Assembly: GCF_019649055.1 (NCBI RefSeq) | Contig: NW_026570258.1 | Span: forward strand, 1,116,001-1,180,000 | DNA length: 64,000 nt | Reading direction: 5' to 3' | Source of the DNA: Paramacrobiotus metropolitanus | Taxonomy: Eukaryota; Tardigrada; Eutardigrada; Parachela; Macrobiotidae | In this document: positions 1,129 through 34,644 of the stretch, piece by piece | Numbering within the stretch: position 1 is the stretch's first letter | Layout: every line of letters begins with the position of its first letter | Position numbers and translations under genes: made by a program | Notes under the pieces: generated by a model | The model's input: the letters and a program-made list of their open reading frames with translations, nothing else | The model's database searches: none | Told to the model about the DNA's origin: nothing

Positions 1129-1137
1129 CCCATATAC
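1129..1137. repeat. 9-bp target-site duplication, left
   Basis: CCCATATAC directly precedes the left terminal inverted repeat and is repeated exactly at 10936-10944, directly after the right one. A 9-bp duplication is typical of Mutator-like transposition. Confidence 0.9.
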
Positions 1138-1248
1138 GGCAGGGGATAAAAGGTGGCAGTGGCACCTGCCACTGGCACCTGCCACCGGCAGGGGCACTTG
1201 CCACTACGCGTTCTGGCAAGCGATAAAACGTGGCAACTTTTAAAAATT
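1138..1248 (+). repeat. Left terminal inverted repeat
   Basis: Begins GGCAGGGGATAAAAGGTGGC and contains several GTGGCA/TGCCAC palindromic sub-units, then a GGCAAGCGATAAAACGTGGC stretch. It matches the reverse complement of 10825-10935 over its full 111 bp with four differences. Confidence 0.93.
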
Positions 1249-1922
1249 CAGAATCAGCTTGAGACAATGTTCCCATCCAACGAAAAGTTCTAAGGAGAGC
1301 TTTTTCGTATTTTCACAGATGGACTCTACAGAACATGTCTATGGACGCACACCCCAGCTGAGTCTTGTGTCCGCGCCTTCCAATGCAGTATTAAAAAGGT
1401 GCTGCAAGCCTGCAACTCTGTTTAGCAGACGAAAGTGTCACCGATTACACTCACAATCAGTGCCAGCGCAAGCGCAAGGTTTCTTGCGCGGAAAAAGCGC
1501 AAGAAACCTTCAAAAATTGATAAGTCTTAAATGGCTAAAAAAATGTTTTCTCTGTACGAGTCAGGCTGCAATGCCTGGGGGGGGGGCGCATTGTCCACTG
1601 ACGAATGTGGCGCATGTAACGGTGACCGCATAATGTGCCAAACACCGGCTTAAAGTCCTCAAAGGTTTCAGTTACGCCCAATAGACTGTAAGACAACGAA
1701 AAAGTAAAAAAACTTGCGCTTGATTCTGGCAAACAAAGAGCGCTTCTGGTTATAATTTTTTATGAATCTGTGCTGTAGATACTGCAGATGTAATCGGTGT
1801 GCAATATTTTTATTTTGTTTGTTTTCGTTTTTTATCTTTTTTGACAAACCCTGAGCGAACCATCGGTACGCACTCGGTTCGGTATCCCTCGTACTAAGAC
1901 GCGTCAAGAATGTTTTTTTTAC

Positions 1923-2093
1923 GAAGTGGCTATTTTGCCGCAGTATTTGCGGTAAAACAGCCTTTAGCTATTTTGCCGCACTATGGCCGGCAAAATAGCC
2001 ATTCACTATTTTGCCGCACACTGCGTTACAATAGCCTTTAGCTATTTTACCGTAGTAAGAGCGGCAAAATAGCCCTTTACTATTTTGCCGCAG
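1923..2093. repeat. Left subterminal array of CTATTTTGCCGCA repeats
   Basis: At least six copies of a 13-15-nt core (CTATTTTGCCGCA and its complement TGCGGCAAAATAG) in alternating orientation, each pair able to fold into a short hairpin. The same motif is clustered at 10518-10690 inside the right end. Such arrays could be transposase-binding sites, but that is inference. Confidence 0.8.
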
Positions 2094-2670
2094 TTTCCTA
2101 ATATTATCGTGAGAATCGGCGTATTGATAATGTGGTTAAGTATTGTAACGAGAGTAATCGAATGACCGCCTTGTTTACAGTGTTGTTGGTTTTCTTTACT
2201 GTTCATTGGTTGTTGTTTTCACTGTGTAACTGAGTGATTCATCCTTCTTTTTCTCTACACTTTTACCGGGCAAACGTCTAAGAGAATGGAACACACTTTT
2301 CATTAGAGTCTTAGAGAATCCTCTGAATGGATGCTTGCCACGCTTGCCAAGCTTGCCCTGCTTGTACACTTGTTGATTAAATGCTTGGAAACGACGTTGT
2401 TTTGTTTGACTCCCCGGGATAATGCACCCATCATTCCGCTCGTCATTGTCACTGTAAATCCACTTCCGATTCACTGCTGAGCTCACGCCCGGCAGTGCCG
2501 GCATTTCCATCACCAGCCGACACAATATCGTGGTACGGTCAACACACCAACCCACTAGAACGCCGGCATAACCGCCCGCGTTACAGTATCCACTTGTTTA
2601 ATGTGTCTAGACTTCCCTTCCTGTCAGTTATCGGTCACATTAGGGAAGTCGTGCCGCAGTTAGTGTCAGA

Positions 2671-2890
2671 CACGGGGCACACCAAAAAAGAGAGTTTAGT
2701 GTCAGACAAGGTAGACATTAGTGATAGCGTGTCTTAGTGGGTGTCAGGTACTGGGGACATTATTGACGATTCGTCAGAACTGGCGTCAGACATAAGGACA
2801 ATAGAAAAGCGTTCACAGGTTGGGAGGCATGGATGACATTCCTGACGGCGGGCTTAACTGATGTCAGACAAAGGGAACAATAGAGACGGT
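2671..2890 (+). repeat. Left inner array of GTGTCTTAGT-GGTGTCAG units
   Basis: Three to four degenerate units sharing TCAGACA, GG-ACA and ATTA blocks; the clearest is GTGTCTTAGTGGGTGTCAG near 2729. Inverted relatives lie at 9209-9420 (GTGTCTTAGTTGGTGTCAG on the minus strand). This is a third symmetric layer of the element. Confidence 0.7.
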
Positions 2891-5800
2891 GTGTTTTGCA
2901 TGTGCTGACTCTGGCCCCTTCCTCATCCAAGCTACTCGCCTCATCTTCGGAGTCGATGTCCGACGACTGGTCGTCCGAGTCATTCGATGGCAGTCGGTTG
3001 TGCTGGCGAGCTCCGAGCCCAAGGGGTCCAGCGATCCCTCCGTATCCATCTGCATCGCCAGGTTGGTTTACGATCTCGAGCCTGAGCTTTCTGCAACGGG
3101 CGGGCGCATCTAGCAGCCAGCTGATCTTGCACTCCTTCGGCTGATGGTAACTGTGGCGGAACCGATTTAAAATCCGTGTCGAATCGCTGCGTCGGTACAT
3201 CGTCCATTCTTGAGGTGGCAGCGTCGGCCTGCTACCTTACTCCTGTATGTCACCATCCGCAAAGTAACCTATCCACGCAATACGCAAACTGACCTGTCCA
3301 CGCAGTGGGCCAAAATGGAGCAAGGACAGTAACATCCTAGGACAGTATTGCCGCCAGAACTCGACCGGAGACTGTTCTCGCTGAGGCACTTGAACAGAAC
3401 TTCGGCCCGAGTGGCGGCCCACGCCGCGCAGCGCTAAGGGAATGGTGACATGTCGCTCCGTAACTCAAACTATATTTTGTCTAGCTCGATCTTCCATAAA
3501 ATCTTTTCTACCGACATGTCTCCCCGCTCGGTCAACATCCGCTCGATAGCGACTTTGGTCGACCAGGACTAGAGTCGGCCGGCGAGTAACGTCAATGCTC
3601 GTTGTTTTTTTCCGGAAAAGCCCTTTCGGGTATTCAAACTTTCTCTCGTACCAGGTGCGGTACCATTCGAACCTAACCGGAGCAAGGACAGTAACATCCT
3701 AGTAACAAGGACAGCGTTTGAAACTTGTCCGGTTTCGCTTGTACGCAAAGTAGGTGAGGGCTGCTTCGGCCTTTCAATGTGACGGTTGCCGTGCAGCAGT
3801 GAGTGACGGCGAATTCCACCGACTCTGACAATCATCTTGTAGTATTCGAGCACTTCCGTTTTAACGTTTCCTCTTCTCGGTATTCTGAAAAAGGCCATGA
3901 CTCCGGTATCGAGGATCGCCATTGTCAGATTCACTCCGATCGCTACCTCGTCTATCCAGGCCGGCACTGTAATCGATCGAAGTATATCGGTCGGGCTCGG
4001 TATAGGTATTGTAAATATAACTGCTTTCAGCGTATCAGCAACACTGGGCCGGGATCATTAGTTGCTAGCGCCGGGATCATTAGTTGCTAGGGTTACTCCG
4101 ACTCGTCGGTCCGGCTGTCCTCGCGCTAATCGGTCGATGCAAGTTTCTTCGACTGGTCGCATGACTGCGGTAAAGCAGGGAGTGCCCGGGGCGGAAAACT
4201 CCCGGGCTGGTAACTCAGTAACTGCAGTAGCCGTGGTGACGGCTTCAGAAGACGAGGTGGAAATAACTAGGGTATGCCGCCGATGGTGCAGCCTGAAAAC
4301 CTTGCGTCCCGGAAGATTGGCAGAAGGTCCCGGTATACCCGAAGGATGCAATGGGGGCGCCAAAGGTTCAGTCTGGCCAGATAATAATATTATAACAGCA
4401 GCTGCCGATTTAAACACAGCCGTTGATGTAATAGTTCGAACCGATGTATGTCTCGGTGCAGATTGGTCTGCCGAGCAGCCACACAGCGCCAGTCCTGATG
4501 CCCAGACAAATATTTGGTTGCCAGATAACGCCCGCGGGAACGCAAACGGTAGGTGAGTGTGGGCGGCTTGCGGCTTGCTCGGCCGAAGATCTTTACCAAA
4601 ACCAGCGAACATGACCCGATCTGGATGGACTAATGGAGCGCCGGGTAGCAAAAATGCGCCTGAGGAGCGACCATTTGGGCCGGAAGGCGCTTTTCTCTTT
4701 TGTACATAAAACCAGCGCCTGTCGATACCGATGTCACCGTCCAGCGATTACGGTGCCGAATGACACAGTGGCGGCCGAGCAGTGACACCGACAGGAGATA
4801 TTTAATTCCTCAGGCTCGGACTCGGACGACGGATATATTTCTAAGCTGCCGAACGCGCCAAGGAATCCAACCTGTCGGGGACATCATGGGCAGCGAGTTC
4901 CCTTTTAAGCTGGATAAGTTTACCAGCCGGATTAGTTTACCAGCCCATCTGGACGGGGTAATCGACTTCGCGGTAACCCGCCGACGGGGGATGCGAAACG
5001 GACGGACGAACAACTCGACCCCATCGTAACCACTCGACGGTACGGTCTTCATACAGCGACAAGACGTAAGTGGCTCAACTCGTAACGTACGATCGACGTC
5101 GACTGCTGCGGGGTGCGCTTTGGACAGCAAAGGCGAACAGTACACTTGTACGACCGAATAGAGATTCCCGACTGCTCAATACCCTGGTAACTGGGACGTT
5201 GAAGCCCGGAAGAAAACTCACGCCCAGTTTGCAGTGCAGCGCAGGCTTAGAGATGTCAACGGTTCGACCGGTTCGGTTCGGTTTGACAAGCGACTCGACT
5301 TCACCTCCGGGTCACTAATCTCCATCGGTTCGAAATGCAAGTCACTTTAATCGGTTCGGTTGCAGCGGTAAGTCGAAGCGAAGCGAACCGAACCGACTTT
5401 AACCAAAAATTTTAAGCGCCTTCCCTGCCTTTGTTAAGGTTGTAAAACGAAGGCCAGTTCGATTTGGACTTCCCGCGCCTACTAGATTGCCAAAATTCTG
5501 GCCGGCTCCATTCCATCCGTCGTCGGTCCAGTTCTAGTGAGCATGGCCGTCGTCAAAGTTATCACAGACACTTCTTCACCGCTTCCGCGCTGCTGGCCGA
5601 AGTTCCCTCCGTAGCCAGACTTCTATAGTGTCGTTCTATCGTCTAGTGCCGTTCTCATAACTACCTTTCGGCAAGATATGTTCCCCGTCTTGCATTGGAG
5701 GAAGGTGGCGTACACAGGGCTGACAGCTGTTGAGCTACTAGCAAATGCCAGCCCGAGCGATGCGGATCCGTATGTCGGCTGCACCGGCACGTACATAATC

Positions 5801-8800
5801 TCGAAAGCCAGTGTTATTTTCGGCGGCGGTCATTGATGCTGCAGGGTAGCTAGTGGTGCCGCCAGTCGATGTTCTGTGCCGCCGCCACATTGGCTCATGC
5901 AGTCGGCTCAGTCTCTGGTGACAGCGGAGTGGCGTGTATCATCCGGGCGGCTGCGCTCTGAGAAACCAGCTACGTGTACTTAAACGCCTTGTATCTTGGC
6001 TTTCCGACCTAATAACCGCGGAGTAATCCAGGTACTTCTACAGCAATTAAATGACTGCGGATGTCCAGAGCGTGCTTCAGCTGCTAACCGTCCACTTTCT
6101 TGCACACGAAGTGCAGGAAAACCTTCTCTTTAAGACTGGGCTGCGACTGTATGGCTTTAATTGCGGCGTGAACTGCTCTGTGGTATCGAATCCTTGTCGA
6201 TACTATCGCCCGGCATCTTCGGCCAAGGCATGGATGCGTTCTTGTTTGGCGAAATTAACCGAAATCCTGGGCATCTGGATATCGAACGACCATCTTCCCT
6301 CCGCTTCTGCTGCCATATGCCCCTGGTACCTGCTTCCAGCATCAATGTCATGACTCCTTCTTGGAGGCGTCCACTTCATCAAGCTGTAGCTCCTCAACCT
6401 CTCGTTTGCGGCTTTACCGGGCGTGCCGATGCCTTGGTTTTTCTTTTGTCTCGGTCAATTCTATCGACTTTGTCACAGTCGCCTCGTCGAGGTAAAGTCA
6501 ATTTTTGTTTCTGGGGAGCCAATTTTTGTTGCTGGGGAAGATCCTCTTCAATATAAATCATTGTAATCCTGACCGCCGTTGTTGGGCTGTCAATTTCGCC
6601 CGACCAATTCCGTTGGTATTGGACCTCTCTCGGCTGCCGCACCCCTGTTCGCCTCGGGAGGGTATATCCTCAAGGTGTCATGTGGCCCCGACCGGCCACT
6701 GTTTTTGAACAGCTGACCGAGGTGTAGGGCCGGGTTGTCCTCCTGGTAAGACGGGCTGCTGTCCGGTGATGGCGGCGGATCGTTGTACAAAACTGGGGTG
6801 CATTCCGGCCTGTTGAAGTATCGGGCCGACCGGCTGTCCGAACCCAGTTTCCTGCTGCGGCATCATGCCGGGCATTTGTACAGGTAGAAATCACCATCCG
6901 CTGAAGAATAAAGGTTATTGAATTCGGTTTGGCAACACTTTACCGACAAAGCATTAAGGCGCTGTGCCAGCTCTTATCCAAAGTCGCGCTGATGTGACCT
7001 ATCGGATAAGTCACCAGCTGGGTCCGCCATGTCAGTCGGGTCCCTTGTGTTTGCCCAATTCGTTCGTGGTCTGGCCCGCCGCTCCGGGTGATTTCTTCCC
7101 GCTGCTACAACTGACATTGTCCTTCCTTCCGACGTTGACCTTCCAATGTTCCGACCTGTAGCGACTGTCGGTCCGGATTCTTGGATTCGTCGTCTCATCG
7201 TGTCGGTAGTCCGGGTTGCCGTGCCGTTCGTTATGACTAAGCCATCCGGTCGCGGAGGCGCACTCGATGCATCAGTCGAGGTCTCCGGTCTGGTCGGCAT
7301 GAACGTCGGGCGTTCCTGACTTCAATGCATCATGCCGATGCTGAATGCCGCCACCAAATTTGGGATGAACTGACCCACCCATTCCGACCCGTCGTATCTA
7401 GTAGAGTGCTTACTCCGTCGCGGTTGTAGTATGGAACCAGGTGGGTGTGATAGGATGACGGGTCATCTTCCACGACTGACGGCATAGGGACCAGAACAGG
7501 ACCGCCGTACAACCGGCAATTAGTTCAGATTTGTATCTCTGGATGGCGAAACGTTTCAACGCTGAGATGGGTTTCTTTTACGCCTCCGCTGGGCTTTCTG
7601 CTTCATGGTCGCCGACCTCTAACGAAACTGAGCTTCCAGTCCGGTTATGGTCTGCCAGATTATTGACAGGGCTGTTTTTAAGCCGGCTACTATTTTTTTG
7701 AACTGTTCCACCCGGTGTATCGTTGCTTTTAGTTCCGCATCTAGACTTAGGTGGCCCAAGTGCAGGTCAGACAACTCCTTTGCCGCTGCGACCCTCAATG
7801 TGATGAAACTTGACCGACATCGACCGACATCATATCGTACTTTTTGTTGCACTCTTCCCCGTTCATCCGTTGCCATCTGGAGGTGCTGTCGCTCGGTTTG
7901 TCATCTCATTTTCGTTGCTACGCACCTATATAAAATTGGCGTTCTCAGTGCCATTATATTCAACCGCTTCTGGAGTCAGTCGGTGGCTTCCGTCAGGTTC
8001 GAATTCTTTGTACACAAAGTGGAATTGGTGATTTCCTTGTCAGCTAAGGCTTACTTCATCTGGTCAGTCTTGTTCCAGGCGGCTGCCAACTGCAGTTCCA
8101 GATAAGCTGATTGCACGGTTCTGGTGTCCCATTCGGTTATAAGCCGGTTGACTGTTTGTGCAGGTCCCTTTCTTCGGTTTCCAACCGCTCGACTGCTGAG
8201 TCAATCTCGGCAAGCGCTTCCACCCATCAGGCGTTATGCTTACAAGCGACCTTCAACTGCGCTTCCGGCTTGCCCACGTGGTCGCTAATCTCTATCAAGT
8301 CGTCGTGACAGTGCTTCTAGCGGAACCAGTGTGGCCCGCAGGTGGCTTTCCGTCGTTCCCGGTTGAGTTTCTGCGAGCCGCTTCTTCAAGCCGCCGACTC
8401 TATCTATACTGCCCATCCACAAGTTTTTGTTGGCTTTAGGCAATCCCTTGCCACCTTTAGTTCGTGGTGCAATTCCGTTGCCTACTGTCGTTTTCCACGA
8501 CATCCGTAATCTGGTTCGATTGCGCTCAGTAAAGGTGTCGAGACCCGTTATTCTCCTGCCACGCTACCGGTTACTATTGTTCTTTCGGCGCCTGAAATAT
8601 CAACTTTGTCGGGTCGGGTCGGCTTCTGTCCATCTTAGGTGTCGACTCAGGACAGCCGCAAACCAGTGACACCGGAGCAGCCGCGGCTTGAACGGTGCCG
8701 ATCGGCGACAGCATGGTCGAGTCGTCCGTCATAAAGTTGCTAGAACTCTATGTTGCTCTGTTGAGTGACCGTTGGCGGGTTCAGATCCGCGCCGGCAGAC

Positions 8801-9265
8801 CTAACTGCCGAGCAGAGCTGCGGTCTGCCCGCTGCGGTCCTCTACCCGTTCACCGGGGTGTGATGTCATCGCTTCGGCCTGACCAGCTTTGCCTACCTTG
8901 GCGCCGTGGATGACGAGGGCCGCGTGGACTGATTCTCCGTTCGTGCCATCAGGGTGTTCCGATTTTAGATCGGCCGACTTCGGAACGACCACCATATCAG
9001 ACGGAATCACCTTGCCTAGGTTGTCTTTGCCTACGTTGTAGTCAGGCGGATGTATCGACTGGTAACGCCGCTTCCATAGCTCCCTCGACCATGTTGAGGC
9101 ATTTAACGCATTCAAGTTTTTACTTTTAACGCTGGATTGCACTGACATCTCAAGCGCTCGGGTCACTTGAGCGTTAACGCTCAGCGTCGACTCAGACCAC
9201 CTATAATATCTCCATTGTCTGACACCAACTAAGACACACACCGGCGTGACGCCGCCCCTATGCAC
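2760..9265 (-). pseudogene. Decayed minus-strand coding region inside the element
   Basis: No product is recognised. Several minus-strand frames have protein-like composition rather than shadow composition. They are: 8801-9265 (about 154 codons, polar); 7619-7876 (a helical, coiled-coil-like stretch with heptad-spaced leucines and isoleucines); 6670-6897 (Pro/Gln/Gly-rich, with PGMMPQQETGFG); and 2760-3200 (Ser/Asp/Glu-rich, with SSDIDSEDEASS). They are broken by stops and frame changes, and I could not chain them with splice sites. They may be remnants of one long structural or gag-like protein carried by the element, or of a captured host gene. The alternative is that they are chance open frames in G+C-richer DNA. 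Confidence 0.25.
4048..4090. repeat. Short direct duplication of 21-22 bp
   Basis: GCCGGGATCATTAGTTGCTA occurs twice in immediate succession (first copy 4048-4069, second from 4070). It is a simple local duplication inside the large element. Confidence 0.85.
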
Positions 9266-9420
9266 CCATGCCTCACACCAACTAAAGTTCGCCGTTTCTT
9301 TTATTGTTCTCCTTGTGTGACATCAACCAAGACACGATGTCCCAATGTTTCCCTTGTCAGAGCCCGACTAAGACACGGCGTCTGGAATGCTCAACATGCC
9401 TGACACAAACTGAGACACGC
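9209..9420 (-). repeat. Right inner array of GTGTCTTAGT-GGTGTCAG units
   Basis: Minus-strand counterpart of 2671-2890: repeated blocks reading GACACCAACTAAGACAC on the plus strand at about 9219, 9271, 9311, 9362 and 9401, each separated by roughly 40-50 bp. Confidence 0.7.
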
Positions 9421-9599
9421 CTGTAACCGCCCAAAACGTTCGAACAACTGAGACCTCCGGCGAACGTTTCGTCGCGTAAACCGTCCAAAACTATCGGGGC
9501 CGCCCAAAGTCCGCCGGATATTTTGCCACCTAGTTTGTTTTGCCTTTTCCAGCGCCGGCCGCAAGAGCGAGACTAATTTTGTATCTGGAAGGTTTTGCC

Positions 9600-9830
9600 T
9601 GACCAATAATTCGTACCCGTTCGTTGTGGCCTGAGTCCTTGACCAAACAATTCGTATCCATCCAAACGTTCTGACTTGACCAAACGATTCGTATCCGGTT
9701 GACCGCACAGCTGGTACCGTGACGTTTTTAGCTGACCGCCAATTCGTATCCGCCCGTTTCTCCTTAACTATTGATATGTATCCGCTTGTTTTGGTCTGAA
9801 TTCTTATCCGGTCGTTTCTGTCGGAGTGTA
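9600..9830. repeat. Degenerate AATTCGTATCCG repeats
   Basis: ATTCGTACCCG, ATTCGTATCCA, ATTCGTATCCGG and ATTCGTATCCGC recur at roughly 30-60-bp spacing (about 9607, 9649, 9679, 9741), with related TATGTATCCG and CTTATCCGG further right. I saw no mirror copy on the left side of the element. Confidence 0.55.
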
Positions 9831-10517
9831 ATTTCGTTACCCTGTTGTTTCTGCGGCAGTAAAGTTTTGTATCAGGTTGTTTCTGCGGAGTGTAGTACAA
9901 ATTTTGAGGCCCGGCAGGCCACAACGTCCGAATACAATATATGCAGGCAGGTAAAAGCGTCCGGGTAGGAGTTGTGCGGTCGTCCAGATACGAATTGAGT
10001 GGTCAGTCCAAAGCGTCCGGATTGCCGTTTGCCGGTTTCTTTAGCCGACTGCCGTTTGTCGGTTTCTTGAGACGTCATGCTTGCTAATTTCATCACTGTA
10101 CTCACGGCAACAATATAAAAAAGGCTTTTTATTTTTGTGAATTAAATTTGTATTCATATCTTAATCTGTATACGGTCGTAGTTTCTGTCCAGATTAAGCG
10201 CAGCGGCTGGCGTGCCGTGGCTTCATCATACAAATTGATATCTTTGATTCGCGATCCAGGCACATCATTTACGGCTGTATGCAAGCAAATTTAACAAAAA
10301 CGCATTGTATTTGCCAGACGAGAACTGTTTGTAACGTCACAGGAGTTCACTCAAGTAACAGGTTAAATCATCGAACCAGAAACAGCTACTGTGGCGACCT
10401 GAACCTCACTCCGATAGTCGCTAAAGGCTATTACTTTAGCATACTATACCGGTAGGTGGCCGCAGCATAGCAGTGATGATAGCACGTCAGCTATCTTTAC
10501 GAACCGTACCACCGAGT

Positions 10518-10690
10518 AAACTGCGGCAAAATAGCGAAGGGCTATTATAACGCAGTGTGCGGTAAAATAACAAAAGGCTATTGTGCCGCACATACTGCGG
10601 CAAAATAGCGAAAGGCTATTGTAGCGCAGTGTGCGGCAAAATAGCAAAAGGCTATTTTGACGCACTGTAAAAACTGTGGCAAAATAGCCT
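10518..10690. repeat. Right subterminal array of TGCGGCAAAATAG repeats
   Basis: Repeated TGCGGCAAAATAGC and GGCTATTTTGACGCA-like blocks at about 35-bp spacing, mirroring 1923-2093. Confidence 0.8.
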
Positions 10691-10824
10691 TAGCCTTTTT
10701 TTTATAATCAGGGTTCATCATACCTGACGTGGACCATGCACATGCACGCCTTCAAGAGTTTAAGGTTTTTTGAGTTGTTAATAACGAGAAAAGTGGTGGC
10801 TTCCTTCATAATTTTTGATTTTTT

Positions 10825-10935
10825 AATTTTTAACAGTTGCCACGTTTTATCGCTTGCCAGAACGCGTAGTGGCAAGTGCCACTGCCGGTGGCGGTTGCCA
10901 GTGGCAGGTGCCACTGCCACCTTTTATCCCCTGCC
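10825..10935 (-). repeat. Right terminal inverted repeat
   Basis: On the minus strand it begins GGCAGGGGATAAAAGGTGGC, like the left terminus. It is immediately followed on the plus strand by CCCATATAC. Confidence 0.93.
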
Positions 10936-10944
10936 CCCATATAC
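10936..10944. repeat. 9-bp target-site duplication, right
   Basis: Exact repeat of 1129-1137 (CCCATATAC). It places the insertion just downstream of the broken gene that ends at 10985. Confidence 0.9.
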
Positions 10945-20918: not shown

Positions 20919-23106
20919 CTGCAAAACATACAAGGTACTTCACTCCATTTACTTCCCGTTAATGCCCTAAACAGTACACAAAATATTGGCGAAATTATTA
21001 CGTACGTTTACAGCTTTTCGTACCATCGTATGAAAATAACAGAATTACCAATATAATACTGGAACCTTCTTAAACGTCTTACAGAGTTTTGCCGACGCAG
21101 CGGTGGATGCGATGTACTGTATTAAGGATCTTAAGGAGTAATAGCAATACTTACACTTACCTAAAGAGTAACTTTGGATTTAAAAAAAAAACATTAAAGA
21201 AAACTAACGCCGTCGCGTTCAGCACAGGTGGAAAATGTTTCGCACCATTCACATACGATTTATTTTAAAAACGATTTCTTCTAGCACAAAATATTACGAC
21301 CGCCCAGAATAGTTATAGTTCAAATTATTTTCAAATGAAAATACTAATTTCCAAAGTCTTCACATTTTACTTATGGTAATAATTATTTTTTCTTGCCCAC
21401 CCTGTTGGCGTTAGCAGATAAATATACAACCTACACACACTAAAAACTGCAGACCGAGAAATACGAGAAGAACAAAGAAACCCATAACGGCAGTTGGTCG
21501 TAAAATTACAGTATTTAGTATTATTTACGTTACCACTATAACCCATGATTAAAAAATTATCACAGCTATGTAATATTCTTCCCTACCTGTGACAAAGGAA
21601 TCCAAGGATCTTCTTACTCCGGAAACAAGGACAACGTAAAACGGAGTAAACAAGACAACAGAACTACAAGAATCAAAAAAGAATTATAAAGTCCAAATCC
21701 AATGTGGCGTAAACACGCGTGGAAATTTTAGAATTCCGCCCACCTCCGAGGCTCAGATAATGCAACTCAAAGTCGCTGTTTCAGACGGATTTATCCCCAT
21801 CCTAAACCGAATGTTATACAAATATCAAGATAGTGGAAATTTAAAACTTTAATTTTAGAACTTTGGAATTTCTGGTCCCCGCTCCCAGTTTACACAAAAT
21901 GCAATGGATTTTACCACAATTCCAGGAAATGGAATTTAGCGTAGCGCGCACTGCACTGTCTTTACTCTGCACTAAAAAAGATTTTCCGAAAAAAATTTTT
22001 TAACGAATTCGTTTAGAGACGTAAATACTGATTTTATGGTAGTAATCTTTGGCGATATTGTCTTCGTAGGTTCCGCGCGCTGGGAAAAGCTCCATCATTG
22101 CAGACATTTATGGTCATTTATCTCCCGCAAAAAATGTTTACGTTCGTAGATGTTCTGGATAATTCGCTGAATGCGCACGCGATATAAAGTCGAAATAATT
22201 ATAGCTGTAATTACTACTAATTAGTCACGTTCGCGCAGACCTTTTGATTCGACATACACCATACAAGAACAACAAGTTCCACCGGTTTTTTTAAATATGT
22301 AAATAAAAACTACGATAAGTATTTAAATGCATTCGCCATTCGGACGCTATACCGGGCGCACAGCCATTTTACGTCTGCCCGAACTCCGGGCGCAGAGCGG
22401 TACTTCGTTTATTTTCTTACCTTTTACTATGTTCAGAATAATATGATTAAAACTACACATGCACATCGTTTTATACGGATGATTTCAGCCAGGCGGAATA
22501 GTTATTTTGATGTTCCGGTTTTGTCGTAAAGTAGAAAAACAAATACGACTCGCATTCAGTTTTACGCAACCCAGTCTGCTGCAGCCAAGATGCAGTTTTG
22601 TACCGGCTTGGTGTCGCACTTTACGTGACCTGGGACGATGAAGCGAAAAAACACTTATGAACGAAAACAGAAAGCGGTATAGCGACTGCCACCGGCCAGA
22701 GAGTTCTTTGTTCAGCGGTTATCTATGCAACTTCCACACGGAAATGCGGCACGCGTCCTAACCAAAGCAGCATAAAGGAAACGCTTTTACTGTGAATCTT
22801 TTTCAACCGGTAGTCACTTAACGAGTTATTACATAAAGTATTTTTACCGATAAAGAGATAGCCTTGCATTTATCTTATATATGTAACCAATTGTTGAGAT
22901 TGAGAAACTCGAAATTGTTAACTACAGAAAGTAAACAAAGAAAAAGTATGCAGAGCCATGCACACGCACCACTGATATCTTCATCAGGCTAAACTAAGGT
23001 TGTTGGCAATTAACGATAATCAAGTTGTATCTGCTTACTGCTAAAAATAATGACAAAACCGAACACACAGTAAAAGAAGAATAACCGAGCGTTCACAGCT
23101 GCATGA
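20919..23106. other. AT-rich spacer upstream of AGO
   Basis: No coding sequence supported. It must contain the AGO promoter and non-coding first exon, which I cannot place. Its distal part (about 22705-23106) is similar to 26400-26721, the 3' flank of the next Kelch gene. This shows that the Kelch duplication unit extends beyond the coding region. Confidence 0.5.
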
Positions 23107-25763
23107 TCAATCATCCAGACCGGTTGGCCATTCGCTAGCTGCGTCATTTTCTACATACACATAACCGTACTTCCGATTGTACTCATCAGTCATCCGGTAG
23201 TGATAATTCACGTCCTCGGTGTCAGAATAAGCATCACTCTCATATTCCACGTATTTCCGACCGTCATACACCGGCGGAAGGTGATGCTGCAGGGGCAGAC
23301 AGACGGTCTTCTGTGCGTAATCACCCCCGGCCACCTCCGCTTGCAGTTCTTTCGTCATCGGCACATCCACCACGGTCCACTGATTCTCTTCCGCATTGTA
23401 TCGTTCAAAGGACATCAGCGCCTGTTTCCGCTGATTGTCCCCGTTGACATGGGTCGTTCCGCCGTACACCCACATCTGACCGTCTCTGATGAAGACACCG
23501 TGCTGGTAACGCGCCACGTTCAGGTCCGCGATTCGCTCCGGTTCGGCCTGGGCGTGGCTGAGTGAGACACGGTAGCAGGCGGTCACTGCCGTTGCCAGCT
23601 TCTTCCAGTCAAAAAAATGGTTGTTGCGATCCACGCAGCCGCCGGTGAAGTAGAGATATCCTTGGAAAACAATAACCCCGCACTGACGATGGAATTTGCT
23701 GTCGTCTGTCCAACTAGTGTGCTTCGTCCACTGGTTGCTGCGGATGTCGTACGTCTCCACCACACTTTCCGGATGACCATCATGCTTCTCCTGAACGGAA
23801 CCAACTGACACGAAGGCAATTCGGCCATGAGGAAGCGGGTAAGGTTCCATTGACGCTCTGTGAAAAGGCTCATTATTTTTGCTCGTGATTCTCTGGTAGT
23901 CCTCAACGCATTAATAACTGCATGCTGAACTACATTCCCTTAATGTTAGTACGTTTCGCGGACAAAAATACTAGCTTCTTACCGGTGATAGCGGTAGAGT
24001 GCTCCGGCTACGTCGCCGTAAATACGGTCTTGCAACCATTGCAGCTTGAACGTTTCAATGTCATCCAACTCAGGAATGGCTCTAATTTCTTTGATGACGT
24101 TGGGAGGCTCTTTCTCAAAGGTATAGTATGGCAGTTGGCTGGCTCGCCACAGTTGTCCCCTGGCCACATCAAAGCTGTACCAGTTTCGAGAATCAATTTT
24201 TGTATCGTCAGCACCGTAAATCCGACTGCCCACCGCCACAACGCACATGCAGTAGTTAAAGGGTGAATCTTTCATGAGAGCCCGTGTACAGCCGGTGACG
24301 CAGTCGATCGCCACCATTTCATCCGAATACGCGTCGTACGGTGTGGTGCCGACAATCAGCTCCCGTCCCACGGCCACCGCGAATCCATCGGCTTTAATCT
24401 TCGGCCAGTGCTCGGCTAACTTCTCCTGCACCGGTGTGTTCAGCTTGGTCAGTTCGTTGCGGAGGAAATCGAAACGGAGGAGCTGATGCGGATGCCCTTC
24501 GCGCATGTGATAGAAGATGGCATCCTTCGGTGCCGCACGCTTCAGCAGTGCTCCACCACCCATGAGACCGCGGTGGCGATCAGCCAGAATTTGAGTCAGC
24601 GCTTCATGCAATTCTCCGGTGGTGGATGTGATCAGCGCGTGGATGTCCATCTGATCCCACACGATACATGCTTCCAGCAGATGATGCAGGTGTTGTGTGC
24701 GCTCGGTGGCGTCGTGCGTGCACCAGCTCAGTACCGCCTGCAAAGGTCAACGTCCTAACAGCTAAAACCACACACAATTGCTCTGAATTGAGTCAGGACT
24801 TCGGAAGTGTTACCAAAACATCCAGCACAGTCCTCAGTCTTAATAAACGGTTTAACACGTGGCAACATGATAGTTATCGGCGATAACCATCATCGATTAT
24901 CGGCGATATTTATCGACGATATTCAGATATTCTAGATTATTGGCGATATTTACTAATAATTGTAATAAACCGTTTCAGCTAACATAACGAAGTGAGCGCA
25001 TAATTACGGAATTACACGCTGTTGCAAACAGTAAAAGTCATGTACCTTACAATCAGTTAAGAGGTGATACTGCGGTTAAAATGTGGGTTAGCAGGGTATA
25101 CTGGTCGGGCGGTGCTACAGAAACAGAATGCAGCCCTAAATTCCAAGCTGCATGGTAGATTTAGCGCACACATACCTCGTATACAGTAGTCTCACAATCT
25201 GGAGCATACTCTTCATGGGTCAGCAGGACAACCACCTCGTCTACGCTGCACTGCAAAAACACCTCCGAACCGGCGAACTCGACGTGACGTGGCAGTTTCT
25301 GGAGAATTTTTGCAAAAGTCAGTTTTTCCAGATCTAACAGGCCATCCCGACGAGCCAGGCGCCACAGACGGTAGACGTGCTCCGGTCGCTGCATCAGTCG
25401 GTTCAAAATCCGCGCGGCCCGTTTTTCGGCATCGTCCATCTGCAGATATCGGGCAGCAATCCACACTTTCACGGCGTCTTTTCGTTCAATGGACAATTCC
25501 GGATCTCCGTCGCTGAGGTTCTGTACCATTTTGACGAAGGTTTCCATATGGACGTTCTCCGGTTGCTGGAGTTCGATGACAGTCTTCTCGGTTTCTTGGA
25601 AATTTCCGGCTAACATGGCGGCGAAGTATGGCGACCCGGCGATCAGTGCGTCTTTATCCACGCATAACACGTCATCGCCGATTTTTAGCTGAATCGTAAC
25701 TGGGGTCAGTCTCTGCTGTTCGGCCGCCATAGACTTCTTGTTCTTTGTACACTTCGAAGACAT
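23107..25763 (-). CDS. BTB-BACK-Kelch protein, paralogue A
   Basis: A predicted substrate adaptor for a cullin-3 ubiquitin ligase, as inferred from family membership. Three exons: 25763-25176, 24737-23983, 23857-23107; 697 residues. The start was placed at the ATG of MSSK because this motif aligns with paralogue B, although an upstream in-frame ATG exists at 25784. BTB domain: about residues 25-125, with VCVDKDALIAGSPYFAAML-type core. BACK-like segment: ARRDGLLDLEKLTFAKILQK and onward. Kelch region: about 290-690, with repeats such as QCGVIVFQGYLYFTGGC and DGQMWVYGGTTH. The C-terminus is WPTGLDD. A 438-nt intron holds degenerate ATCGATTATCGGCGATA repeats near 24880-24990. Its sister at 26722-29666 is nearly colinear, with identical intron phases. 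Confidence 0.93.
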
Positions 25764-25799
25764 GATGGATCTAGATTCGTCCATCAGTATGCTGGTTAA

Positions 25800-26721
25800 A
25801 TTCCAAACTTCCGACTGAACTGAAAATTAAGACTTTCTAGTTTTAATTAATAATGTTTGTTTAGTTTTTATTAATAATATTTAGTTTTAATATTTTCAAA
25901 TAATTATACTTATTTTTAACCAGTTAGCAGCAAGAACTGAAACTGATCTGATGGTTATAAGAACTGAAGGTACGGTACTAATTTTGCACTGCATAAAACT
26001 GATTTTGTCTCTCCTAGCATAACCAATGGTACAAATACTAGTACAGTAAGTCCTAGCTATCTGTCACGGTCATGCTTATACTTACATGGCTCATGACCGC
26101 TTAGTTTCTTTTGTTCTCGTAATGCCTGGCACTGATCATGAGCTGCCTAAAGCACCTTATCCAATCACAAACGTGAATCACGCCCTTTGGTAGTGTTCTG
26201 CTAATTCCTATATGCTGCTGTTTTACTTTCGGTACAAGATACGCGTACGCGTACGAACGCTCAAACTTGTTCAAGCTTTTCTTCGTTGTAACTTGTATTG
26301 GTCATTGCTTCTTTAATACAGTGTACACTGTACAGTATTGCCGCTGTGCGTTTATGGATAAGTACGTACCTAAGAAACCTAAGAAACGCGCAAACGTTTT
26401 TTTGTTTAGCGGTTGTCTTTGCAACTTCCACACGAGAATACGACACGCGTTAATCAATGCAGCATAATGGGAAAGGTTTTTTGCAGGGAATATTTTTGTT
26501 GTTCAAACGTTGGTCACTTAACTAGTAAACAAAGAAAAAGCATGAAGATCAAGTACACTTACCATGGATATCTTCGTTAGACGAAACTCAGAAGGTTCTT
26601 GGTAAAGGTTAACCAAATTGTATCTATCTGGCACAACTGCACACTGTAAGGTTGAATGGCACAACTGTACATACAGTAAAAGAGCAAAATAACAGAACAG
26701 TAGACATTTCAAGCTGTATCA
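25800..26721. other. Spacer between Kelch paralogues A and B
   Basis: No gene. The left part is AT-rich with TTAATAATATTTAGTTTT repeats just upstream of paralogue A. The right part (about 26400-26721) is the duplicated 3' flank shared with 22705-23106 (for example GCAACTTCCACACG and GTCACTTAAC blocks). Confidence 0.55.
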
Positions 26722-29666
26722 TCAATCATCTAGACCAGCTGGCCATTCGGTAGCTTTGCTATCCCTTTCTTGACGAGAACCGGGCTCCTTATTATACTCG
26801 TCTTTCATCCGATAGTGATAAGTCATGTCCTCACTGTCCGACGAAGTATCACTAGACTCGTATTTCACGTATTTCCGACCGTCATACACCGGCGGAAGGT
26901 AATGCTGCAGCGGCAGACATACGGTTTTCTGCGCGTAATCCCCACCCGCCACCTCCGCTTGTAGTTCTTTCGTCATCGGCACATCCACCACGGTCCACCG
27001 ATTCTCTTCCGCACTGTACCGTTCAAAGGACATTAGCGCCCGCTTCCGCTGATTATCTCCGTCCACGTGGGTCGTCCCACCGTATACCCAAATCTGGCCG
27101 TCCTTGATGAAGACACAGTGCTGGTAACGCGCCACGTTCAGGTCGGCGATGCGCTCCGGTTCGGCCTGGGCGTGGCTGAGTGAGACACGGTAGCAGGCTG
27201 TCACCGCCGTTCCGTTCTCCTTCCAGCGGTAGAACGAGTTTCCAACATCCCTGCAGCCGCCGGTGAAGTAGAGATATCCTTGGAAAACAATGATCCCGCA
27301 CTGATGATGGAATTTGCTGTCATCTGTCCAACTAGTGTGCTTCGTCCATTGGTTGCTACGGATGTCGTACGTTTCCACCACACTTTCCGGATAACCGTCA
27401 TGCTTTTCCCGAACGCATCCCACGGACACAAAGACAATTCTGCCGTGGGGAAGAGGGTACCCTTCCATTGACGCTCTGCAAAGATACTAGCTTGAAGTAG
27501 CTTCACAGTTGTCACTGCATCTGCACCAAATTTGTGACTGCAGGTCGGTCGGTAAGGGAAGAGACCGGCACATAGTACCATATTCGTGTACATGCACAAA
27601 CCCTTTCACTTTCGTGCACTCTCAAACACGTTTTTGCAAAAACCATCTGGCTACAGAATATTATTATAAAATAAAGTTGAGAAGTACTTAGCAGTCCGTG
27701 AAGTGAAAGTTTCAATTAAGGGACTGCTTTATCTTTAGTACAGCACACGATTTATTTTCGAGTACATGCACGAATACACGAATACTGTACCACAAGTTCA
27801 CATAAAGTACAGATGCACGAATCTAGTACTTACCATGTACCGGGCCACTTCCCGTACTTACGTTAACGCCAAACGTTTTTTTCGATAGTCCACAACGCGT
27901 TAATAACGCACGCTAAATATCTACAGATATTAGCTAGTAGTACAGTTCGCCGAAAAACACTCTGGACTCACCGGTAATAGCGGTGGAACACTCCGGCTAC
28001 GTTGCCATACAGACGGTCTTGCAACAACTGCAGCTTGAACAAATCCATGTAATTCAAATCAGAATTGGCTCTCACTATTTTAGTGTAGTTGGTGGGCTCT
28101 TTCTCGAAGGTGTACTGTGGCAACTGGCTGGCTCGCCGCAGTTGTCCTGTAGGCACATCAAAGCTGTACCAGTTTCTGGTACCGTCATTGTTGTCCGCAT
28201 CATCAGCACCGAAAATCTGGCTGCCCACCGCCACCACGCACATGCATTCGTTAAAGGGTGATTCTTTCATGAGAGCCCGTGTACAGCCGGTGACGCAGTC
28301 GATTGCCACCAATTCATCCGAATACGCGTCGTACGGTGTGGTGCCGACAATCAGCTCCCGTCCCACGGCCACCGCGAATCCATCGGCTTTGATCTTCGGC
28401 CAATGCTCGGCCAACTTCTCCTGCACTGGCGTGTTCAGCTTGGTCAGTTCGTTGCGGATGAAATCGAAGCGGAGGAGCTGATGCGGGTGTCCGTCGCGCA
28501 TATGGTAGAAGATGGCCTCCTTCGGTGCGGCACGCTTCAGCAACGCTCCACCGCCCATCATGCCGCGCTGTCGATCGGCCAGGATCTGTGTTAGCGCTTC
28601 GTGTAGTTCTGCGGTTGCGGTTTCTATCAGAATTTTGATATCCAGGTCATCCCACACGATACATGCGTCCAGAAGATAACGCAGATGCTCCTTACGTTCG
28701 GCAGCGCCGTGCATACACCAGCGCAGTACGGCCTGCAAGGGTCAAAACGCAAAACATGTTATTCCAAGATGCGAAGGTACAGTTTAGCACTTCGTCACCA
28801 CATTTTCGAAAGAATCTTGTTAGACAGTTACGGAATTCAAAATTACGTATTATTAGGTTACACATGTAATGTGTTTGCATATGTAATGGTTTATCGAAGC
28901 GTAACGGAAGCTTTAATGAAAAATTACCTAGTACTTTTAAAAAGAAGACTAATCTGATGCATCTCAAAGGAATAATTTGTGCTGGAAAATTTTGTCGTCC
29001 TAAACTTCAAATTGGATATGCCAAATGTTACAGAGCATAAATTTTGCTGCGATACTGCATTGTAGAGATACGGTAAGGCAGACTGACCTCATACACGGAA
29101 GCTTCACAATCTGGAACATAATCATCATGGGTCAGCAGGTCAGTCACTTCGTCCACGCTGCACTGCGAAAACCACTCCGAATCGCTAAACTGAACGTGCC
29201 GGGGAAATTTCTGCAGAATTTTCGGAAAGGTGAGTTTCTCCAGATCAAACAATCTATCCCGACGAGCCAGACGCCACAGACGGTACGCGTGCTCCGGACG
29301 CTGCATCAAACTGTCTAAAATCTTCGCGGCCCGCTTCTCGGCTCTGCCCATTTGCAGGTATCTGGCAGCCATCCACACTTTCACGGCGTCTTTCCGTTTG
29401 ATGGACAATGTCGAGGTGCCGTCGCTGAGGCTCTCCACCAGTTGGACGACCGTTCCGAGGTGAACATTGTCAGGTTGCTTAAACTCGATGACAGATGTGG
29501 TGGCCTCCTGGAAATTTCCCCCTAACATGGCGGCAAAGTATGGTGACCCAGCGATCAGTGCGTCTTTGTCCACGGATAACATTTCATCGCCTATCTTCAG
29601 CTGAATTGTAACTGGAAGTTGTTGGGCCGCCCTGAATTTCGTATTCTCCTTAGACTTTGAAGACAT
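26722..29666 (-). CDS. BTB-BACK-Kelch protein, paralogue B
   Basis: Same family and architecture as paralogue A. Exons 29666-29088, 28732-27972 and 27475-26722; 697 residues, identical in length to A. The start is at MSSKSKENTK. The BTB core SVDKDALIAGSPYFAAMLGG is intact, and the BACK segment contains ARRDRLFDLEKLTFPKILQK. The Kelch part differs from A mainly in acidic loops (YESSDTSSDSEDMTYHY here) and in the extreme C-terminal loop before EWPAGLDD. Intron 2 (27476-27971) has expanded relative to A and contains a partial copy of the GTACCGGGC-type MITE. The highest divergence lies in surface loops, which suggests paralogues under purifying selection on the fold. The cellular target is unknown. 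Confidence 0.93.
27540..27680. repeat. Partial copy of the GTACCGGGC MITE family in Kelch B intron
   Basis: Contains ACCGGCACATAGTACCATAT, CATGCACAAACCCTTTCACTTTCGTGCACT and TGGCTACAGAAT blocks in the order seen at 56170-56330. A related single terminus (CATGTACCGGGCCACTTCC) lies at about 27834. The copy is degraded. Confidence 0.6.
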
Positions 29667-30250
29667 AATAGGATTGCAGAACGAAGGAGAGATGCACAAA
29701 ATCAGTTTTATCAGTGCAAGTTATTTTTAGTTCTTGTAAACCACTACTAACTGGATAACCAGAGTAATGCGTGCTAGATTATTTGGAACTGACTGACAAA
29801 GAACAACCACGACCAGGCACGTTATGGCCTGAGGCCTGTTCTTGCTTTCTCGGTATGATCGGCCAATCACTAACACATAATTGGAGCAACCTGGTTCAAT
29901 CACGGTTTGTGATTTTGCCGACAATGAGTTTTATACGGTGGTGGTAAATATTCATGACATTCAAACTTTGTTTTGTAGTATTACTACTTCACCACTGTAC
30001 AGATACGAATATTTCTTCTTTGTTGTTCGAATACAAATATTTTTCTTTACCTATGTTGTACGAATACAGTACTTTTGAGTTTGCTATCATCGGTGCATAT
30101 GCACTTTAATTGCTCCTCTTGCTCAACGCGGACTTTACATTTCAAGTAGTCCTACTTCGAAAAAATGGAAATAGTCAAGAAAAAATCAGCCTAACATCAA
30201 ATTAACGCATCACCTTGAAAATTCTTACGTAAAATACGTATTTTACAACA
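29667..30250. other. Intergenic between Kelch B and the transporter
   Basis: AT-rich; nothing beyond short frames. The two genes are convergent with neither, both lying on the minus strand, so this holds the Kelch B promoter and the transporter's 3' flank. Confidence 0.5.
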
Positions 30251-33200
30251 TCAAACTGTCTGGGCAATCTTTTCCTTCTGAACGTCCACATGAAGAGATT
30301 TCAAATAGGCGACCCATTCGGTCTCCTCTTGCTCCGCGCGGACCACCCGGAATCGTCCGTGCACGAATCTCACTAATCGGCCGTTGGGCAGACGGAAGCG
30401 CAACCGTTCACCTTCCACACGCGGCAGTTTACGATCCCGTAGATCGGTGGGTACGAGAACCGCGAGGATGAGCGCTAACAGTACCGGTCCTAGTATCCAA
30501 CGGAAATTCAGATCGTACCTAAATCGTCCAAATCAGGATTTAAATCTGGAGACTAGAAATAGCGGTCGTCTGCAAGATGATAGGCTAGTCATACGTCTGC
30601 GATATTGTGGATAAGTTGGCAAGGAATTATTTAGCAATGCATAAACCTGTTTCTGAATATCAACGTGAAATCAGTTTGTTGGACTTCAGTAAAAGAATAA
30701 TTTGGAGAGCGGAGATAAAATAAAAATTCAATGTAGTCAATATCTCGTTTTTGTACCTCATCCGTGTCGCAACTCATGCAGAACAACAATACGGTAGGTT
30801 GAAATACCAATTATGCATACGAATGAAGAAACAAAACTGTCTACGTACCACATGATATCGTCATCAGGATACGTTATTCTCTGTTGGTTGTACACAGCAG
30901 AAAAAATCAATCCACCGCCCACCCCAGCAATCGCCCATGCTGTAAGGATCTACGGATAAAATAATGCGCTATCAGACTGCTATTAGATACATGGTTACAA
31001 CTCTCACTAAGCGATATATGTATTGTACGTAGACCAAAACAAATGGACAGTGGTAGACAAGAGATCTTTATTTACGATATGCAATAACCCTGGAAATCTC
31101 ACCATTCCATGCGTTGCTCCGACATTTTTCGCTCCAAACTGATCAGCCAAAAACGCCGGGATCATCCCGAAGCCGCCACCGTCTAAGCAAAGGCACAGTT
31201 ACAGCATCAGTCAATTATTTTGCACTTGCTCATTTTCTTTCTGTTATCGCGATCATGAAAGGTGAAAATACTTAGGACAATAATACATTAACACTGCTTA
31301 CAAAAGAACCCAATGATTAGTGTACAAGCCAGCACTCCACCCAGACTTTCGGCATTCAGAGCGCTCGGCAGGCATCCTAGACAGACGGCTTGGCATGTCA
31401 GCGACACAATGAAAAGAGCTTTGCGGCTTTTGATCAAGTCGGATATCAGCGGTAGTATTAGCCGGCCCAGCACGTTTGCCTGCAAAATTACAAATGGTGC
31501 TTCTAAAGACTTTTATAAAGGTCATGCAACTATGTACCAACCCCTCCAAGTCCGGAGTTGATATCAGCGGATTCCGCATTGGATCGCCTGAGCTGATTAT
31601 GTGCAATGCTCTGCACTTTGGAGATGATCAATAAACCGGTGATCTCCGATCCGAGAAACATGAAATACTACAATTTCACCAGGTGACACCGTTGCTTGAA
31701 AACAGTCGTAAAACGGTCGGATGTGAATTTGACATAAACAGAAAGCGTAACTCATAGCGGTCATTAACGATTTATACGGTTTGCATACATTTACGTAATT
31801 TTGACTTCGGCTTCTGACTTCGGCCTAGATTTTGAAGATAAGTTGCGTGATGATGTTCCAGTCATTCAAACACGCGTACCAAAAATAACCAACTTGTAGA
31901 TTATATAATCTACAAGTTGGTTATGTTTGGTACGCATTTGGCATATATGCCAAATATTAACTTAATTTGTCACCGTATCTTTACTCGTTTTGTACATAAA
32001 AATAATAAAAGAGTTTACGTAAGGTTCTGATCTACACATGCTACGTAAAATTTCCATTTATGAAAATATGGAAATCTGTCTTGTACTGACCATCATCCAA
32101 TACTGCGGTGACGTTAGTGCTTCCTTCAGTGTCATGGAAAAATGTTTGGCGTAATCCGGGATGATCTCCACGACCGAGCTGCCGCGTGACCGTGCCCGTA
32201 CTTTCGCGGTGAGTTCCCTCTCGATCGTCGCTAGCTCCATTTTGTTCTTCTCCGTTTCTTGACCAGGTTTCGGTAGGTCATCCACCAAAGCCTTCTTAGT
32301 TTTGAATAGGTTTTCCGCGCCTTTAACTGTGTACACTGTCACGCCTTTTACAGTGTACCCTGGCCTAAAAATTCCAAATGGTCAACACAGGAACAGTCTT
32401 TCATTTCCCTACCAGATTTGATGGTACTCTTACGGTGGCATGCGAAGAACTAGAGCGCTGGTTGTCATGATGACAAAGTAGCAGGAACCCAGGATAACGA
32501 ATGTCAGTTCCAAACCCAAGAAAACCTTCCCGGTGTTGGCGTATTCCGGTCCGATTAGCTCCCGCTGTGTATAGGGTGAAAAAACGCTGCCAGCTCCAAA
32601 GCCGCAGACTGCTAAACCAGCCGCAACGCCCCGCATTTCGGGGAACCATTTTTGCAGAGGCGACACAGGCGAAATGTAGCTGATGCCGAGTCCCGCAGCG
32701 GCAATCACACCATAACCTGTAATTTGGTAATAATAACCGTGAACCGGTTAAGTGCACCGCGGAATATAACGTAATGTACCGATATAAATAAGCCACATCT
32801 GGTTAACGTAGATGGCCAGAGCGGTGGTCAGGTTGCCCAGATAAAACAGGCACGAGCCCAGGAGTGCCCCCTTCAACGGACCGTTGCGTTCCAGCCAGGG
32901 TCCCAGGAATGCCGCGTTCAGCGCAAACACCGCCACAGCCAGGTAAAAGACGTTGACCGCTAAACACAGCCGGTTTCGGTGTCAATTCAATGGTGGTTAT
33001 ACATGTGCAAAACATAAACAGTTGCAGTAAGAACTGATGAATTTTTAGCCATTTTCAGTTTGTAAGTTACCAATGGCGCGATCCTTCGCGTCGTTGAATC
33101 CGTACATTCTGGCTTCTATGGGCAGATTGTAACCGCTCCATGCGTATAAGGAACCACAGCATACCTACACAAAACAGGCGATACCCAAGGAACGGCTACG

Positions 33201-34367: not shown

Positions 34368-34527
34368 CTTAGGACTAAAAAGACGCATAATCCCACACCC
34401 AGATATCTGTACGCATGTGGCAAGTGCACTTGTACGACTACCAGATATTTTGGCTGAGTCGTACAGCGCACTGCGCCTCATGCGTTCGGAATGCTGTGGG
34501 TGGAATTATGCGTCTTTTTGTCCTAAG
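34368..34527. mobile_element. 160-bp MITE
   Basis: The termini are inverted: CTTAGGACTAAAAAGACGCA at 34368 and CTTAGGACAAAAAGACGCAT on the minus strand from 34527, with similarity over about 30 bp. An internal pair (CAAGTGCACTTGTACGAC) adds hairpin potential. No convincing target duplication, so the superfamily is unknown. Confidence 0.75.
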
Positions 34528-34644
34528 TATGTATGTACCTAAAGTATTTTAAAGACTTAGTATGTATTTTAAAATTTTTCTTTTTATTTATGTTCACTCA
34601 GCGACATAACAGTCAATCAATCCACTACGGCCACTACTGCACAA

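Follow-up and report, generated by a model that had tools for sequence, protein, structure and literature searches.

Does a pair of clean terminal inverted repeats (TIRs), flanked by a perfect 9-bp target site duplication (TSD), delimit a single transposable element? The question is raised by positions 1129-10944 of a 64,000-nucleotide stretch of the genome of the tardigrade Paramacrobiotus metropolitanus (assembly GCF_019649055.1, contig NW_026570258.1, positions 1,116,001 to 1,180,000 of the forward strand); 'the window' below means this whole stretch. The initial annotation described there a Mutator-like element (MULE) of 9.8 kb, which would either carry cargo or be autonomous and of a new type. 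In our analysis the locus is almost certainly a nested pair of non-autonomous MULEs of different families, and for both families the genome has candidate autonomous partners. Two insertions occurred in order, each with its own duplication (Table 1).

The arms of the outer TIRs, 116 bp each, have 6 mismatches, with 4 of them within the first 111 positions, exactly as had been counted by eye, and the 9-bp duplication, CCCATATAC, flanking both outer ends is perfect, as also stated earlier. The outer terminal 21-mer (≤3 mismatches) had 4 matches in the window and 0 in 100 shuffles; the terminal 27-mer (≤2 mismatches) had 113 forward and 120 reverse matches in the genome, 233 in all, with 0 for the backwards control. 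As the 21-mer was absent from the shuffles and the 27-mer from the control, the outer ends are not due to chance, and the other copies of the terminus that the initial annotation proposed to look for do exist. Comparison of 132 bases of the left outer end with the genome gave 40 matches (the best 40 of 324 candidates scored). Among the first 100 termini listed (of 233) we saw 35 convergent neighboring pairs; their sizes, for the matches listed, had a median of 1,720 bp, with the smallest pair of 140 bp and the largest, besides that of the window, of 4,291 bp. An exact 9-bp duplication was present in all 10 outer copies examined (the window's, seven short ones, L028 and L029); at locus L013 it was exact only after the right end was moved by one base. 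Genome-wide termini, pairs and exact duplications together indicate a real multi-copy family, and both the long TIRs common to its copies and the 9-bp duplication (8-11 bp, commonly 9, in MULEs) place it in the MULE superfamily. Since the listed outer pairs are far shorter, a copy of 9.8 kb is out of line with the outer family.

A second inverted-repeat pair (I2-I4), which the initial annotation had missed, is situated inside the first, starting near 1922 and 10695. Matches between the window and short relatives of the outer element run to ~1919-1921 and resume from ~10697; in L016, the points corresponding to window positions 1919 and 10697 are six bases apart. The outer halves joined with one TTTTTTTTA make a sequence of 1,015 bp, which has an unbroken alignment to each of the four relatives compared (L012, L014, L015 and L016). 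Because these relatives are uninterrupted and the insert has its own TTTTTTTTA duplication, the segment 1922-10695 came in when the outer element was already in place. The outer element is a non-autonomous MULE similar to a miniature inverted-repeat transposable element (MITE), ~1.0 kb long (1,015 bp), in the host target CCCATATAC; the longest stop-to-stop open reading frame (ORF) beginning in its left part has 129 aa.

The insert carries tips that recur across the genome: 181 left tips and 155 right tips in total, versus 2 and 0 in the controls. For the right tip, the pattern GGCTAWGGCTATTTTGCCGCAG (≤2 mismatches) gave 80+75 matches, with 0+0 in the control, the window's own tip having 1 mismatch. 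The first six bases, CGAAGT in the left tip versus GGCTAA or GGCTAT in the right one, differ before the shared part, GGCTATTTTGCC or TGGCTATTTTGCC; hence, the inner ends are asymmetric. The first 100 tips listed for each end yielded 62 pairs in the expected orientation and within 30 kb; tips were paired with their nearest partner, which may have produced some wrong pairs (on contig C36, two left tips were assigned the same right tip). Pair sizes among the matches listed ranged from 47 bp to 28.8 kb, with a median of 7,153.5 bp and 36 of the 62 pairs at 5-17 kb; with a median pair of 7.2 kb, the 8,774 bp of the window copy are ordinary in the inner family. An exact 9-bp duplication, as expected for a MULE, was observed in 12 of 18 pairs with flanks read (the window, C58, C106, C121, C31, C1 twice, C443, C11, C8, C74 and C70), including the window copy.

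A duplication of 8 bp was also considered for the inner family; flank reading ruled it out in favor of 9 bp. The 8-bp reading had prompted a Kyakuja-Dileera-Zisupton (KDZ) transposase as a candidate. There are three above-cutoff KDZ matches in the genome (C65:648378-648803, C129:165370-165705 and C515:8600-8935); the two KDZ loci checked had no inner-type end motifs. Separately, left and right inner tips were seen only 47 or 91 bp apart at C3:81875-81921, C63:581601-581647, C37:103208-103298 and C1:2943849-2943939; these could be either extremely small elements or self-pairing repeat units.

A candidate partner of the outer family is the copy L028 (C169), 4,291 bp long, with outer TIRs, the duplication AATTTCCGG and a 344-aa ORF having a MULE match (E 1.6e-4). 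Its protein had 62 genome matches; the region C29:1211436-1212359 is 79% identical and contains, at C29:1211448-1211723, an above-cutoff match to the Pfam MULE domain PF10551. A MULE-domain protein between outer-type ends again points to the MULE superfamily. Pfam reported no FLYWCH domain at E≤0.1 in the L028 protein, the N-terminus of which is FLYWCH-like by eye only. Another MULE domain is encoded in the window itself, at 51329-52177 (-): an ORF of 282 aa with an above-cutoff MULE match (2.1e-7) and a sub-cutoff match to the ZSWIM1-3 RNaseH-like model, which is either a further transposase or a transposase-derived gene.

For the inner family the candidate partners are much larger. The genome search with PF10551 gave 39 matches, and 3 of the 62 listed inner pairs hold one: C31:380374-400584 (20.2 kb), C1:885467-905719 (20.3 kb) and C1:448187-469897 (21.7 kb). 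Each of the three copies has an exact 9-bp duplication; for two of them the MULE domain was confirmed on the DNA itself. Starting at its left tip, the C31 copy has a ZSWIM3_N/FAR1-like ORF, the MULE ORF, an ORF with a CxC...CxH motif, a protease region and a PHD ORF. The first ORF has weak matches to ZSWIM3_N (E 0.0046) and FAR1 (E 0.046), both sub-cutoff; the transposase ORF matches MULE (E 1.3e-13) and the ZSWIM1-3 RNaseH-like model (E 8e-20); the CxC...CxH ORF is SWIM-like by eye, with none reported by Pfam; the last ORF matches PHD below the cut-off (0.0044). The protease frame, interrupted in C31, is open over 215 aa in the C1:885467-905719 copy, with an above-cutoff match to PF02902 (1.4e-6); the MULE match of this copy has E 6.5e-14. 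The genome search with PF02902 gave 9 matches; two of these lie in the two C1 elements, and of the two one contains a stop. The C31 copy and this C1 copy are 95.9-99.0% identical in four aligned stretches.

A diverged coding relative on C149 has the MULE, CxC...CxH, Ulp1 and PHD ORFs in the same order. Compared with C31 or C1, its substitutions at codon positions 1/2/3 number 34/22/110 in the MULE ORF, 123/95/185 in the CxC...CxH ORF, 79/48/136 in the Ulp1 ORF and 44/39/85 in the PHD ORF. With a third-position excess in all four ORFs tested, these ORFs have been kept by selection. The C149 locus was used solely as a relative of the genes; it has a right-type tip (3 mismatches) and composite units on the expected left side, with only a 5-mismatch left-type match opposite. 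The 14.0-kb pair on C13, which holds an Ulp1 match, was not counted as a coding copy, as the match has the reverse direction relative to the C31 order and the pair lacks a duplication. In addition, we noticed by eye a recurrent ORF with the pattern RPD(G/V)(L/I/M)T ... D.T..DT.A.SY, in the window (34645-35157, -), L031 (2637-3065, +), L038 (3212-3862, -) and L060 (4480-5007, -); it was met close to a KDZ transposase fragment as well as within two elements of the inner family, and Pfam gave no name for the two copies tested.

Could the 9.8 kb still be a single unit, in which outer ends captured 8.8 kb in the manner of a Pack-MULE and transposed with it as cargo? The outer ends with their exact 9-bp duplication are what such a carrier should have; however, the 8.8 kb have their own tips, found 181 and 155 times, and their own duplication, the insert sits in sequence that is uninterrupted in all four relatives compared, and among the 35 outer pairs listed only that of the window exceeds 4.3 kb. 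We regard this explanation as very improbable, and Pack-MULE status of the outer element was rejected, the long interior being a separate insertion. Thus, of the initial description, the Mutator-like outer termini stood (10 of 10 duplications, a 4.3-kb copy with a MULE match), while the single 9.8-kb element, and with it the choice between cargo carrier and new autonomous type, was not supported.

Several observations weigh against the nested pair with its candidate partners. The inner target is a T-run, in which the exact start of the duplication could slip; at this target the run is shorter by two Ts in L012, L014 and L015 and by one T in L016. Six of the 18 inner pairs lack an exact 9-bp duplication, with 2 mismatches in C135 and C105, 4 in C13, 5 in C36, 6 in C57 and 7 in C258. 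The MULE match of L028 is below the Pfam curated cut-off (22.5 versus 27.6 bits). Finally, outside the ends, the window copy and the C31 copy share no interior match longer than 90 bp or 20 aa; since the interiors do not match, it is through the shared ends that the two are linked and mobilization in trans is suggested.

What, then, is the interior of the inner element? Pfam found no domain above the curated cut-off in 10 minus-strand ORFs between 2196 and 10002 (best E 0.075), so that the absence of a visible transposase, as noted initially, was borne out as far as tested. Beyond the ends, the interior chiefly matches other copies with the same kind of ends. Of the 8.8 kb of the window copy, ~4.1 kb are shared with a 17.5-kb copy, C58:113852-131323 (duplication GACAAGTTT), in pieces of 65-88% identity, one stretch being inverted; parts of 7139-8926 and some other stretches are matched by copies of 4.7-9.8 kb on C145, C376, C367, C8, C23, C44 and C96. 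Short-period tandem arrays recur in inner-family interiors (L004 1078-1805, L010 120-1295, L027 4489-5589, L026 6000-8000, L059 1140-3333). Elsewhere in the window, 163 bp at 34365-34527 are 92% identical to the interior of a 10.6-kb inner-family element on C36 (L033 4659-4821).

The initial annotation also proposed to look for a conserved minus-strand gene shared between copies. A gene-like region is indeed shared; it belongs, though, to the inner family and has no clear coding constraint. A 141-aa frame of this region taken from L004 had 73 genome matches, the window's two with 2 stops each and several others open. No consistent third-position signal was seen among 11 related copies, nor in the comparison of the window with C58 and others, where individual segments were uneven (e.g. 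0.16/0.42/0.31 at 7240-7061). The ratio of nonsynonymous to synonymous substitution rates (dN/dS) was 0.69 in the frame of the region and also 0.69 in one reverse frame; for two pairs of open copies it was 1.06 and 0.76. The frame is the one with fewest stops of the six (67 stop-containing codon pairs versus 135 to 449). The region may once have been coding; at present, judging by the sequence, it appears to be under no clear codon constraint, with no evidence of maintenance.

Two other origins of the inner element were weighed. A Pack-MULE-like carrier of captured host gene fragments seems unlikely: copies with the same tips do hold different interiors, the gene-like region is open in several copies, with a coiled-coil-like translation, and its frame has the fewest stops, but the window interior matches mainly copies of its own family and known repeats, with no evident host gene outside, no parental gene was found among the best candidates scored in an assembly with gaps, and codon-level constraint is not clear. 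We consider it somewhat less probable still that the window copy was once autonomous, in a sub-lineage of its own, and has decayed with loss of the transposase. The C58 copy, sharing ~4.1 kb at 65-88% identity, tells that the sub-lineage is old and can be long; yet there is no transposase domain in the 10 window ORFs searched with Pfam and no PF10551 match listed inside C58:113852-131323, and the ~20-kb coding copy on C31 has a different interior. The preferred reading, a non-autonomous passenger nested in the outer MULE, is the one followed below.

Table 1. Features of the nested locus (window coordinates)
Feature	Positions	Strand	Evidence
Left 9-bp TSD of outer MULE (CCCATATAC)	1129..1137	.	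Flank read
Left TIR of outer MULE	1138..1253	+	Inverted-repeat pair I1; 6 mismatches/116, 4 in first 111
Left part of 1,015-bp outer element; last 9 bases are one copy of inner target	1138..1921	+	Aligned to uninterrupted L012, L014, L015, L016
Left 9-bp duplication made by inner element (TTTTTTTTA)	1913..1921	.	Flank read; uninterrupted versions in relatives
Inner non-autonomous MULE, 8,774 bp, inside outer one	1922..10695	+	Own tips, own duplication, uninterrupted relatives
Left tip of inner element (CGAAGTGGCTATTTTGCCGCAG)	1922..1943	+	92+89 genome matches, ≤3 mismatches, control 0+2
Composite left inverted end, ~38-bp units	1929..2094	+	Periods 38 and 74
Solo long terminal repeat (LTR), 442 bp, TG...CA, 4-bp duplication GTAT, nested in inner element	2144..2585	+	Related pair in L020 (367-2775) flanked by ATAC
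Decayed gene-like region, relatives in other inner-family elements, in-frame stops here	7060..8760	-	C38:1124574-1124759, C38:1123949-1124116, 2 stops each
Fragment of repeat also found elsewhere in genome in inverted pairs	9416..9541	+	Genome matches
Stretch similar to tandem arrays on C252, C48, C35	9801..9894	+	Genome matches
Composite right inverted end, ~36-bp units	10522..10668	-	Periods 36 and 74
Right tip of inner element (GGCTAAGGCTATTTTGCCACAG); first 6 bases unlike left tip	10674..10695	-	Search pattern GGCTAWGGCTATTTTGCCGCAG
Right 9-bp duplication made by inner element (TTTTTTTTA)	10696..10704	.	Flank read
Right part of outer element	10705..10935	+	Aligned to uninterrupted relatives
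Right TIR of outer MULE	10820..10935	-	Pairs with 1138-1253
Right 9-bp TSD of outer MULE (CCCATATAC)	10936..10944	.	Flank read

The solo LTR is a third nesting layer. In L020, two copies of the LTR bound a 2.4-kb unit flanked by ATAC. The genome has 15 further near-full-length matches to it at 84-93% identity, some of them in direct pairs ~9.4 kb apart (C24, C492). Outside the nested locus, three tandem sets of similar BTB/kelch-like ORFs were seen by eye in the ORF list at window positions ~23100-40000 (-).

In the history that we propose, a ~1.0-kb outer MITE-like MULE entered the host target, duplicating CCCATATAC; an 8.8-kb inner MULE of the second family then landed in the T-run inside it, duplicating TTTTTTTTA, both events being recorded in the duplications. 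For the outer element, the presumed source of transposase in trans is copies like the 4.3-kb one on C169; for the inner element, it is copies of the ~20-kb C31/C1 type, which have the same tips, a MULE transposase of the ZSWIM type, an Ulp1-type protease and a PHD ORF; shared ends and genes were observed directly, and cut-and-paste movement in trans is what they suggest. The rest of the inner element would be an old interior common to other copies, perhaps once coding and now drifting, together with the solo LTR.

As a locus, the nested pair is ordinary; more interest attaches to the inner family, in which both coding copies and passengers are large. Clean outer ends with a perfect duplication are no proof that the interior belongs to the same element. 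Two non-autonomous families are linked here to candidate autonomous partners in the same genome, which makes movement in trans testable, and coding copies of ~20 kb with constrained Ulp1 and PHD ORFs bear on the size limits of transposons and on transposon contact with the host SUMO pathway.

The outer family is like Phantom and other animal MULEs (PMC6446971, PMC13359780) in its 4.3-kb transposase copy, ~110-bp TIRs, 9-bp duplications and short derivatives; Phantom is described with a FLYWCH zinc finger and a MULE domain (PMC6446971). The inner element resembles Pack-MULEs and animal Pack-TIRs (PMC8277862, PMC6431247) in having MULE ends and a long interior without transposase, and in being non-autonomous; it is unlike them in that no parental host gene was shown. 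For the Pack-MULEs of Jiang et al. 2004 a size of ≤7 kb is cited in PMC6431247, and a survey of 100 animal genomes, which limited interiors to 5 kb, found no Pack-MULE (PMC8277862).

With regard to size, full-length arthropod MULEs span 1.4-10.0 kb in one survey (PMC13359780), whereas the inner coding copies, at ~20 kb, exceed its 10 kb maximum; cut-and-paste transposition is said to fall off above ~6 kb (PMC6431247). One could speculate, quite tentatively, that the inner family is an animal MULE lineage of ~20-kb coding members with conserved Ulp1 (SUMO-protease) and PHD that has repeatedly amplified passengers of 5-17 kb with drifting interiors, above the ~6-kb fall-off, and that either the Ulp1/PHD module or the long two-tipped composite ends enable movement of long DNA.

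A search of the open literature, with Repbase and most subscription papers outside it, listed no animal MULE of ~20 kb that carries Ulp1 and PHD. The parts themselves, Ulp1/PHD in animal Mutators and asymmetric composite ends (Tm1), are already in print. An Ulp1 domain in Mutator elements of hydra, lancelet and plants is mentioned in PMC2836005, where, according to a figure legend, the Ulp1/PHD alignment includes Mutator transposases; these Mutator transposons are like the inner family in encoding an Ulp1 domain. In Rehavkus the PHD finger is in the transposase and a minisatellite precedes the 3' end (PMC6446971); here the sub-cutoff PHD match is in a separate ORF downstream of Ulp1.

The closest architecture is that of Tm1, a Mutator/Foldback family of root-knot nematodes (PMC3169594), which shares with the inner family the 9-bp duplications, inverted ends composed of tandem units, asymmetric tip motifs of ~7 bp, and MITE-like as well as longer members; in the isolates examined a single copy coding for a MULE transposase is described, and even a nested insertion. 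A pattern for the SL1 leader (≤1 mismatch) had 0 matches in the present genome, a result without evidential weight. Its unit is ~14 bp versus ~38 bp here, and the end sequences differ, the tips being CGGTTAA/CCTACCC versus CGAAGT/GGCTAA. The Tm1 transposase was placed in Phantom (PMC3169594), whereas that of the inner family matches ZSWIM1-3 models and resides in ~20-kb copies with Ulp1 and PHD. The different tip motifs and the ZSWIM-type transposase rule out assignment of the inner element to the Tm1 family proper; with asymmetric tips outside composite ends and a 9-bp duplication, it is Tm1-like in architecture, not in sequence.

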